Below are positions 2,474 to 35,756 of a stretch of DNA of 39,595 nucleotides, piece after piece. Each line of letters starts with the position of its first letter. Position 1 is the first letter of the stretch. Both the position numbers and the translations under genes were made by a program. This DNA comes from an uncultured Erysipelotrichaceae bacterium. GTDB taxonomy: Bacteria; Bacillota_I; Bacilli_A; Erysipelotrichales; Erysipelotrichaceae. The DNA lies in contig CASFOT010000040.1 in the NCBI GenBank assembly GCA_949296305.1, positions 1 to 39,595 of the forward strand. The letters are read 5' to 3'. The notes under the pieces are model-generated. The model had not been told where the DNA came from. It saw only the letters and a program-made list of their open reading frames with translations, and searched no databases.

Positions 2474-4213
2474 TCAAGCTTTGATGGCAATGTGCAGTTC
2501 ATCCAATTGCTTTTCATCTACACTGCTTGGTGCCTCACTCATCAGATCGCTCGCACTGGCAGTTTTTGGAAATGCGACAACATCTCGTATATTGTCTGTT
2601 CCTGCCAAGATCATGACCAATCGTTCTAACCCGATTCCAACTCCACCATGAGGCGGCGTGCCATAACGGAAAGCTTCTAAGAAGAAACCAAAACGGCGTT
2701 TAGCTTCTTCTTTGCTCATGCCGATTGCTTCGAAAACCTGTTCTTGCAGCTGCTGATCATGAATACGAATAGAACCACTTAACAGCTCGTAACCATTCAA
2801 GACTAAATCATACGCTCTAGAATAACAATTCGCTTTATCATTCATCAATTTGTCTACATCTTCTAAGTTTGGTGATGTAAAAGGATGATGAGCAGCGACA
2901 TAACGGCCTTCCTCTTCGCTATATTCAAACATCGGGAAGTTTGTTACCCATAAGAATCGATAAGTTTGTTGATCAATCAGATCCAGATCGTGTCCAAGCT
3001 TCACACGCAATGCGCCTAAAGCTGTTTGTGAAACTGTTTTTTTATCCGCAACGAACAACAACAGATCATTCTCTTCGACTTGAAGTTTCTGCTTCAAAGC
3101 GTCCTTTTCAGCATCACTGATCACTTTCGCAATGCTGCCAGAGAAGCCATCTTTTCCGTATTTCAAGAAAGAAAGTGCTTTGGCACCATAGATCCGAACG
3201 TGTTCTTGCAATTTGTCAAGTTGTTTACGTGAGAATCGATCGGCAGCATTTTTTACAACGATCGCATTGATCTCACCACCTTGTTCTAAGATATTTTTAA
3301 AGATGGTAAATTCTGTCTGTTCAAATATTTCATTTACTTGCTGCAATTCCATTCCAAAACGCAGATCTGGCTTGTCGCTGCCAAAGCGGCGCATACATTC
3401 GACATATGGGATCCGTTCAAAACCAGATAATTCGATTCCTTTTGTCTTTCTGAAAATTTCGCGCATCAGTCCTTCCACCATTGCGAAAACATCCTCTTCT
3501 TCAACAAAGCTCATCTCAATATCGATTTGTGTAAATTCTGGCTGACGGTCTGCTCGAAGATCCTCGTCACGGAAGCAGCGCGCTATTTGAAAGTATTTTT
3601 CTAATCCGCCAATCATTAACAACTGCTTATAAATCTGCGGAGACTGCGGCAAAGCATAAAATCCTCCTTTGGTAATACGGCTTGGAACCAAATAATCACG
3701 TGCGCCCTCAGGTGTAGATTTACATAAAATTGGTGTTTCAATTTCTAGAAAACCGCAATCCGACAAATAATTACGTGTGATCATTGTAACTTGATGACGC
3801 AATTTTAAATTCTTTTGTAAGCAAGGTCGACGCAGATCTAAATAACGATACTTTAAACGCGTATCTTCCAATGCATCAGTTTCATCTGCAATGATCAAAG
3901 GCGTCGTATCTGCCGTATTGATGATTTCAACGGAAGAAACCTTGATTTCAATATCGCCAGTCGGTAAATTCGGATTTTTATCTTGACGTTCTACAACGAC
4001 TCCTTGTGCACATAATACATATTCGTTTCTTACATCAACGACCTGAGGTGAAATCGTTTCATCAAAGACCAACTGCGTGATTCCTTCACGATCGCGGAGA
4101 TCGATAAAGACCAACGCACCAAAATTACGCCTTTTTGCAACCCATCCCTCTAATACGACTTGTTTGCCTGCATCCTGTAAACGCAGTTCCCCATTGTTAT
4201 GTGTTTTTCTCAT
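2474..4213 (-). CDS. aspS: Aspartyl-tRNA synthetase
   Basis: A 579-aa class II synthetase, close to the ~590 aa usual for bacterial AspRS. An OB-fold anticodon-binding domain comes first (EGWVAKRRNFGALVFIDLRD). The catalytic core follows, with motif 2 (FRDEDLRADRQPEFTQID), the bacterial GAD insert in the middle, and motif 3 near the end (GIGLERLVMIL). It charges tRNA-Asp in the cytoplasm. It lies 11 nt downstream of hisS, the same pairing as in Bacillus and many Firmicutes, and shares the hisS T-box leader. From sequence alone I cannot tell whether it is discriminating or also charges tRNA-Asn. Confidence 0.97.
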   Translation of the reverse strand: MRKTHNNGELRLQDAGKQVVLEGWVAKRRNFGALVFIDLRDREGITQLVFDETISPQVVDVRNEYVLCAQGVVVERQDKNPNLPTGDIEIKVSSVEIINTADTTPLIIADETDALEDTRLKYRYLDLRRPCLQKNLKLRHQVTMITRNYLSDCGFLEIETPILCKSTPEGARDYLVPSRITKGGFYALPQSPQIYKQLLMIGGLEKYFQIARCFRDEDLRADRQPEFTQIDIEMSFVEEEDVFAMVEGLMREIFRKTKGIELSGFERIPYVECMRRFGSDKPDLRFGMELQQVNEIFEQTEFTIFKNILEQGGEINAIVVKNAADRFSRKQLDKLQEHVRIYGAKALSFLKYGKDGFSGSIAKVISDAEKDALKQKLQVEENDLLLFVADKKTVSQTALGALRVKLGHDLDLIDQQTYRFLWVTNFPMFEYSEEEGRYVAAHHPFTSPNLEDVDKLMNDKANCYSRAYDLVLNGYELLSGSIRIHDQQLQEQVFEAIGMSKEEAKRRFGFFLEAFRYGTPPHGGVGIGLERLVMILAGTDNIRDVVAFPKTASASDLMSEAPSSVDEKQLDELHIAIKA

Positions 4214-4224
4214 TATTCTTACTC

Positions 4225-5547
4225 CTATTCATGATGGTGACCGCATGTACAGCCACTTTCTTCTGCTTGATCTTCACCAAACAATCGGTCCATAACCGCT
4301 ACGATATCTTCCATTGGAACAGTATGCTGTTTTTGTGTCTCAATTTCTTTGATTGTTACTTGTTTGGTTTCTAATTCTTTATCTCCTAAGAATACCGCCA
4401 TTTTTGCGTGTTTTCGCTCAACGCTCTTAAACTGTGCTTTAAATGAACGGCCTAAATAGTCCATATCACAGCGATATCCATTGCTGCGCAGCTCTGTAAC
4501 CATCTGTAATGCTGCAGTCTTTGCTTCAGCAGCAAGACAGAGCACATACACATCGAGTCCATTCTCTTCACTTAATTCAATACCTTCAGCCTCACAAGCA
4601 ATCAACAGGCGTTCTAACCCCATTGCCCATCCGATGCCGCTCATTCCTTTAGGTCCGCCAAAGTATTCTACCAAACCATCATAGCGCCCGCCGGCAAACA
4701 CAGTGGACTGTGCTCCCATTTCTTTATTCATCGATACTACTTCGAATACTGTATGCGTATAGTAATCTAATCCTCGTACCAAACGATCATCGATCTCATA
4801 TGGAATACCAAGAGCATCTAATCCCTCAAGGACTGCTTTGAAATAGGCTTGTGATGCATCATTCAAATAATCGCTCATCTTTGGTGCACTTTTCATCACA
4901 TCCAGATCATGATCGATCTTGCAATCCAAGATTCGAAGCGGATTTTGTTCATATCGCCGCTGGCAATCCGGACACATCGTTGTGATTGCATCTTTAAAAT
5001 GTGCACGAAGTGCCTTTCGATAGGCATTGCGTGATTCATCATCGCCTAATGTATTGATCAGTACTTTTAGATCACTTAAACCTAATGCTGAAACAAAAGA
5101 CCACCCTAAAGCAATTGCTTCAACATCGATCATTGGATCTTTGGCACCAAGAACTTCTACGCCAAACTGATTAAAAATGCGCATACGGCCTTTTTGTGGG
5201 CGTTCATGGCGAAATTGTGGACCAACATAATACATTTTTAGCGGCAGATCCGGCTGGCCATATAATTTATGTTCAACAAAGGAACGGACTACTCCAGCAG
5301 TACCTTCTGGCCGCAATGTGAGTGAAGTAGAACTATTTTCTAATTGAAAAGTATACATTTCTTTATTGACCATATCGCTGGAATCATTTCCACGTTTGAA
5401 AACATTTGTATGTTCAAAGATTGGTGTACGAATCTCTTCGTAATTATACACATAACAAAACTGACGGATCAATTCTTCCAGTCGATGCCATTTGCTAATA
5501 TCCTGCGGCAAGATATCTTGTGTTCCTCTAGGTACTTGATAACTCAT
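4225..5547 (-). CDS. hisS: Histidyl-tRNA synthetase with Cys/His-rich tail
   Basis: A 440-aa class II synthetase that charges tRNA-His. It starts with MSYQVPRGTQDILP, the typical HisRS opening. It carries motif 2 (FRHERPQKGRMRIFNQFGVE), the HisA loop LVRGLDYYTHTVFE, motif 3 (GIGWAMGLERLL), and a C-terminal anticodon-binding domain. The start has a strong AAAGGAGG six bases upstream. Unusual feature: the last dozen residues include GCTCGHHHE, two cysteines and three histidines beyond the normal domain end, which look able to bind a metal. First gene of the hisS-aspS-flavodoxin operon, controlled by the T-box leader immediately upstream. Confidence 0.97.
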   Translation of the reverse strand: MSYQVPRGTQDILPQDISKWHRLEELIRQFCYVYNYEEIRTPIFEHTNVFKRGNDSSDMVNKEMYTFQLENSSTSLTLRPEGTAGVVRSFVEHKLYGQPDLPLKMYYVGPQFRHERPQKGRMRIFNQFGVEVLGAKDPMIDVEAIALGWSFVSALGLSDLKVLINTLGDDESRNAYRKALRAHFKDAITTMCPDCQRRYEQNPLRILDCKIDHDLDVMKSAPKMSDYLNDASQAYFKAVLEGLDALGIPYEIDDRLVRGLDYYTHTVFEVVSMNKEMGAQSTVFAGGRYDGLVEYFGGPKGMSGIGWAMGLERLLIACEAEGIELSEENGLDVYVLCLAAEAKTAALQMVTELRSNGYRCDMDYLGRSFKAQFKSVERKHAKMAVFLGDKELETKQVTIKEIETQKQHTVPMEDIVAVMDRLFGEDQAEESGCTCGHHHE

Positions 5548-5563: not shown

Positions 5564-5590
5564 TAAAAAAAACGCCCTATCTAAGGACGT
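5564..5590 (-). terminator. Conditional terminator of the hisS T-box
   Basis: ACGTCC-TTAGATA-GGGCGT stem-loop followed by TTTTTTTT. It is mutually exclusive with the antiterminator that contains the T-box core. Confidence 0.85.
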
Positions 5591-5776
5591 AATTGTACGC
5601 GGTACCACCTTAGTTCACATCAAAAGATGTGCCCTTCTCTCCATAACGCCGATCCCGCGATCATCCATTTCCTGATGATTCCTCCAAAGTGTCTGTTTTC
5701 ATTCAAAGACAAAGTGTTGCACCAACCCACTCTTCTCTACGCTCTTTTTCATGAAACACTCTTTTTCAACAGATAT
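5564..5776 (-). promoter_or_regulatory. T-box leader of the hisS-aspS operon (specifier GAC/CAC)
   Basis: Transcription-antitermination riboswitch that senses uncharged tRNA. The T-box core AAGGTGGTACCGCG is at 5611-5598. The terminator stem ACGTCC/GGGCGT is at 5590-5572 and is followed by an eight-U tract. The apical part of stem I has the GGTTGGTGCAAC signature. In the 3' side of stem I the sequence is CAGACACTTTGGAG. Aligned with the alaS leader in this window (CAGCTACTTTGGAG), the specifier register gives GAC (Asp; 5693-5691), with CAC (His; 5691-5689) overlapping it. Confidence 0.93.
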
Positions 5777-5782
5777 ACCTAT

Positions 5783-35546: not shown

Positions 35547-35756
35547 AAAAAAACGTCCCCTGCTCCAGGAACGTAATTGATACGCGGTACCATCCTAGTT
35601 CATCGATTGATGCCCTCAATGTCGTTATTTCGCTGACCAGCGTTTGACTCCAAAGTAGCTGTTCCCAATGATCATCAGAAAGCTTTCACCAACCGCTTCT
35701 TCTCTATGCTGCCTGAACAAAGGTACTTTTCTTTTTCATCGCCAAGTTATTGAACA
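35547..35756 (-). promoter_or_regulatory. T-box leader of alaS (specifier GCU)
   Basis: T-box core AGGATGGTACCGCG at 35596-35583; terminator ACGTTCC-TGGAGCAG-GGGACGT followed by seven U (35574-35547); stem I apical GGTTGGTG. The specifier GCT (Ala) is at 35659-35657 in CAGCTACTTTGGAG, matching the downstream gene. Senses uncharged tRNA-Ala. Confidence 0.95.

Follow-up and report, generated by a model that had tools for sequence, protein, structure and literature searches.

The T-box leader of hisS-aspS operons in Bacilli has already been described. As reported in one later paper (PMC5313534, citing Gutierrez-Preciado 2009), the sequence GACAC is characteristic of hisS-aspS T-boxes, which mainly interact with tRNA-Asp, and another paper (PMC4342826, citing the same work) puts forward the idea that a single element may adopt two structures and thereby respond to tRNA-His as well as tRNA-Asp. 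Since both have been published, neither the GACAC overlap nor the idea of dual sensing is new; the present work adds a comparison in which the His codon is tested against both control T-boxes and the variable base of the UGGN bulge. A two-codon T-box for tRNA-Asn and tRNA-Glu is on record from Clostridium acetobutylicum (Saad et al. 2013, as cited in PMC7778990) and, going by that citation, resembles the present case in that two sense codons are readable near the specifier site. The third point of reference, the hisZ T-box of this genome and of its family, belongs to the same riboswitch class as the hisS-aspS leader.

The window, that is, the whole stretch of 39,595 nucleotides that was analyzed, carries the hisS-aspS operon and its leader on the minus strand, and its relevant features are as follows:

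5580–5778, minus strand: T-box leader of hisS-aspS (RF00230, 109.4 bits, E = 1.7e-23, cut-off 93)
4225–5547, minus strand: hisS, histidyl-tRNA synthetase (TIGR00442, 477 bits)
2474–4213, minus strand: aspS, aspartyl-tRNA synthetase of the bacterial type (TIGR00459, 788 bits)
5691–5693, minus strand: specifier GAC (Asp) in the canonical register of the Rfam and R1 alignments
5689–5691, minus strand: overlapping CAC (His) at +2; the pair of its last base (5689) with G5761 is the closing pair of the lower Stem I helix
5761–5764, minus strand: AAAG, 5' strand of the helix below the specifier loop, with its partner CUUU at 5689–5686
5604–5607, minus strand: UGGU of the T-box bulge for the tRNA 3' NCCA, with N = U at 5604 (sequence and R1 alignment)
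5583–5611, minus strand: antiterminator with the T-box element, AAGGUGGUACCGCG ... ACGUCCUU
5572–5590, minus strand: intrinsic terminator, hairpin ACGUCCUUAGAUAGGGCGU with a U run after it (1 found versus 0.2 expected)
5560–5553, minus strand: ribosome-binding sequence ahead of hisS
35564–35748, minus strand: alaS T-box with a GCU specifier, used as register reference (RF00230, 95.7 bits)

In operon, architecture and GACAC the leader is like the published hisS-aspS T-box of Bacilli, and nothing essential differs from that element as it is portrayed in the citing papers. It belongs to the T-box class by an RF00230 score above the cut-off and by an antiterminator with a UGGN bulge that competes with an intrinsic terminator, the sequence ACGUCC being common to the antiterminator and the terminator at 5590–5572. 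Against our own covariance model R1 it scored 170 bits, a value obtained with a training alignment that includes this same leader. In alignment A4, in which 43 leaders were aligned to the same structure, 92.9% of the cells in the stems were paired and both-sided changes were seen in 32 of 42 pairs. Two other RNA elements were matched on the minus strand of the window, 6S RNA at 498–657 (RF00013, 64.5 bits) and a Group II intron D1D4-7 match at 10–160 near the contig end (RF02012, 40.9 bits).

The plus strand reads GTGTC at 5689–5693, i.e. GACAC on the minus strand. The initial annotation had placed this run in a T-box before an operon for HisRS and AspRS, with GAC in the specifier register by comparison with alaS and with CAC starting two bases after the start of GAC, and all of these points held: the RF00230 match is genuine, TIGR00442 and TIGR00459 identify the two synthetases, CAC lies at 5691–5689, and GAC shares the register of the alaS GCU both in the Rfam alignment and in R1, the model from 21 hisS leaders. 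Specifier positions across leaders were called by covariance model; T-boxes and tRNAs of the genome were taken from search matches, and the tRNA counts may be incomplete. Within the same order, the specifier was GAC in 43/43 leaders (L055 re-registered by eye by one base), and overall in 85 of the 99 hisS leaders, the 85 consisting of these 43 and 42 from named genomes. L127 of the named genomes was likewise re-registered by eye by one base. Thermodynamic folding, which was applied to the isolated Stem I only, gave a non-native fold with the specifier itself paired and does not weigh the slipped register against the canonical one.

The overlap can be taken to mean that the leader is a dual sensor, in which GAC is read by tRNA-Asp and CAC by tRNA-His via a two-base slip or an alternative fold. 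CAC is present, both synthetases are encoded in the operon and a His signal would suit hisS; the two-structure, two-tRNA proposal and the Clostridium precedent, as cited above, point the same way. We compared the hisS leaders with 47 control T-boxes bearing other C-ending specifiers, taken from the source genome and eight relatives. No conservation of the His codon beyond this C-ending-specifier background was found: CAC followed in overlap with GAC in 57/85 hisS leaders and with the specifier in 33/47 controls (p = 0.85), and CAY in 69/85 and 41/47, respectively (p = 0.47), Fisher p-values that are only indicative because leaders and controls share ancestry. When only the same order was considered, CAC was somewhat commoner than in controls, as dual sensing would have it, but not significantly so (36/43, 84%, versus 33/47, 70%; p = 0.14).

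As a rule, a T-box specifier has a purine next to it, after which comes the closing base of the lower Stem I helix. Among the controls, the C-ending specifier was followed by A in 41/47, and the next base was normally C or U. A C-ending specifier with the usual A and a closing pyrimidine therefore tends to turn NNC into NNCAY, and a His codon then lies at +2. Within the source genome, TAC (tyrS), ATC (ileS), AGC (serS) and CTC (leuA) all show CAC or CAU at this place. As judged from these sequences, the CAC overlap is most likely a by-product of the C-ending specifier, the following A and the helix-closing pyrimidine. In control alignment A7, the third base of the specifier and the base next to it went together, the latter being A in 41/47 after C and G in 26/33 after G or A, counts that include many orthologous leaders and hence are not independent.

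Regarding the structure, the specifier loop does not leave the second codon accessible, as the position of the last base of CAC is paired in nearly all of the 43 leaders. The pair equivalent to 5689–G5761 was G–C in 21/21 leaders of alignment A3, and in the 43 leaders of A4 it was G–C in 41, A–U in one and unpaired in one; all four pairs of the AAAG/CUUU helix covary, with 97.7% of the cells paired. In many Bacillaceae the closing pair is A–U and the sequence becomes GACAU, so that the third base of CAC follows the helix. Since TBDB weighs only the specifier frames −1, 0 and +1 (PMC7778990), CAC at +2 would not be considered there. Both the paired third base and the +2 frame speak against dual sensing.

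The initial annotation had looked to relatives for conservation of GACAC over GAC alone, and had itself counted leaders that keep only one codon against the double reading. Such leaders were found: 16/85 retain GAC without CAC or CAU, where loss was counted only as loss of CAY and GACAU was kept as His-bearing, since CAU also encodes His. Five of the 16 come from the same family as the source. Within the same order CAY was absent from 6/43 leaders, which read GACGC in L024, L027 and L029 (HisRS identity 64–71%), GACAG in L052 and L055 (HisRS identity 72–73%) and GACCC in L045. It was also absent from ten of the 42 named-genome GAC leaders, for instance with GACCU and GACUU in Paenibacillus; GACAA and GACCA are further forms without CAY among the GAC leaders. 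Overlap at the control frequency together with this loss in 16/85 relatives argues against dual sensing as well.

The tRNA discriminator bases are G73 for tRNA-Asp and C73 for tRNA-His in the source genome, the latter tRNA having an encoded G-1 paired with C73. At N of UGGN, the 85 GAC-type hisS leaders had U in 56 and C in 28, one being unscored, and neither A nor G occurred among the 84 scored. The U of UGGU in the window can wobble with G73 of tRNA-Asp, whereas C73 of tRNA-His is left unmatched. On the other hand, the same genome has a separate His T-box before hisZ (L004, G000:C96:10176-10407) with an in-register CAC and UGGA, and among 18 hisZ leaders CAC was in register in 18/18, with N = A in 17 and G in one. 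The hisZ T-box thus differs as a dedicated His element from the hisS-aspS leader, which is without these features, and GAC with UGGY at hisS-aspS and CAC with UGGA at hisZ indicate that the clade uses two distinct elements. Because TBDB finds that discriminator matching is no firm criterion for His T-boxes (PMC7778990), we regard this evidence as strong but not conclusive. With N being U or C in all scored GAC leaders, never A as in hisZ, and with C73 in tRNA-His, dual sensing is unlikely. The leader also departs from the C. acetobutylicum T-box in that its second codon is partly paired and conserved no better than a chance overlap, and in that the tRNA for this codon mismatches the bulge. An element sensing tRNA-His alone in the +2 register, with GAC a coincidence, would fit hisS as the first gene and a PKZ18 study that refers to the hisS-aspS leader of Staphylococcus aureus as a histidine T-box (PMC7927825), but this is very nearly untenable in view of the canonical-register GAC in 85/99 leaders, the loss of CAY in 16 of those 85 and UGGY in 84/84 scored GAC-type leaders.

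In 14 leaders of hisS-aspS taken from named genomes of Bacillales the specifier is AAC instead of GAC, eight of them in Bacillaceae, with UGGC or UGGU (L082, L083, L086, L088, L091, L092, L093, L098), and six in Planococcaceae, with UGGA (L074, L075, L079, L081, L087, L101). In a wider sample of Planococcaceae (L340–L400), UGGA was found in 58/58 leaders; the specifier was AAC in 54, one of which was assigned by eye, and GAC in the other 4, and CAY was absent from 3/58 (L361, L363, L399). UGGA is otherwise the mark of hisZ leaders. Since tRNA-Asn and tRNA-Asp both carry G73 in the Planococcaceae genomes checked, the A of UGGA would be unpaired with either. A +1-frame reading of these leaders as ACA (Thr) was rejected, tRNA-Thr(UGU) having A73 there.

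These AAC leaders and the UGGA of 58/58 Planococcaceae despite G73 in tRNA-Asn and tRNA-Asp could suggest a family-wide shift, in which the specifier moves between GAC (Asp) and AAC (Asn), Planococcaceae leaders now respond to His or Asn, and the overlapping codon served as a bridge. We consider this highly improbable: it is inapplicable to the leader in the window with its GAC and UGGU, three Planococcaceae leaders (L361, L363, L399) are without CAY, and AAC occupies the canonical register, which would allow Asn to be the signal, with UGGA left unexplained. It is also quite improbable that breathing of the closing G–C pair gives a weak but useful response to tRNA-His via CAC, RACAY being an evolutionary bridge completed in Planococcaceae (UGGY to UGGA, usually with GAC to AAC). 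The leader in the window has GAC and UGGU, and the UGGA of Planococcaceae has no bearing on it.

Taken from the anatomy, the register, the comparative conservation and the discriminator bases observed here, the leader is very probably an ordinary transcriptional T-box specific for tRNA-Asp that controls hisS-aspS. It has an Asp codon at the specifier and an N that can pair with G73, as a tRNA-Asp-specific T-box should. By analogy with studied T-boxes, uncharged tRNA-Asp would bind the leader and cause antitermination: its anticodon GUC would read the GAC in the loop of Stem I, and its GCCA end would pair with UGGU in the antiterminator bulge with one G–U wobble, which would prevent terminator formation and switch on both hisS and aspS. 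Thus, of the initial suggestion that the leader might answer to tRNA-Asp, tRNA-His or both, GAC as the specifier stands, and the part of tRNA-His or a register slip is not supported, given the control-rate overlap, the 16/85 loss, the paired third base and UGGU facing C73.

The comparison supplies a simple null for every claimed overlapping specifier that ends in C. Dual sensing, if true, would mean that a single riboswitch integrates two tRNAs for an operon of two synthetases, a rare situation. For this clade, the comparison settles on Asp T-box as the annotation of the published ambiguous case, in which His would have no direct input to the expression of hisS.
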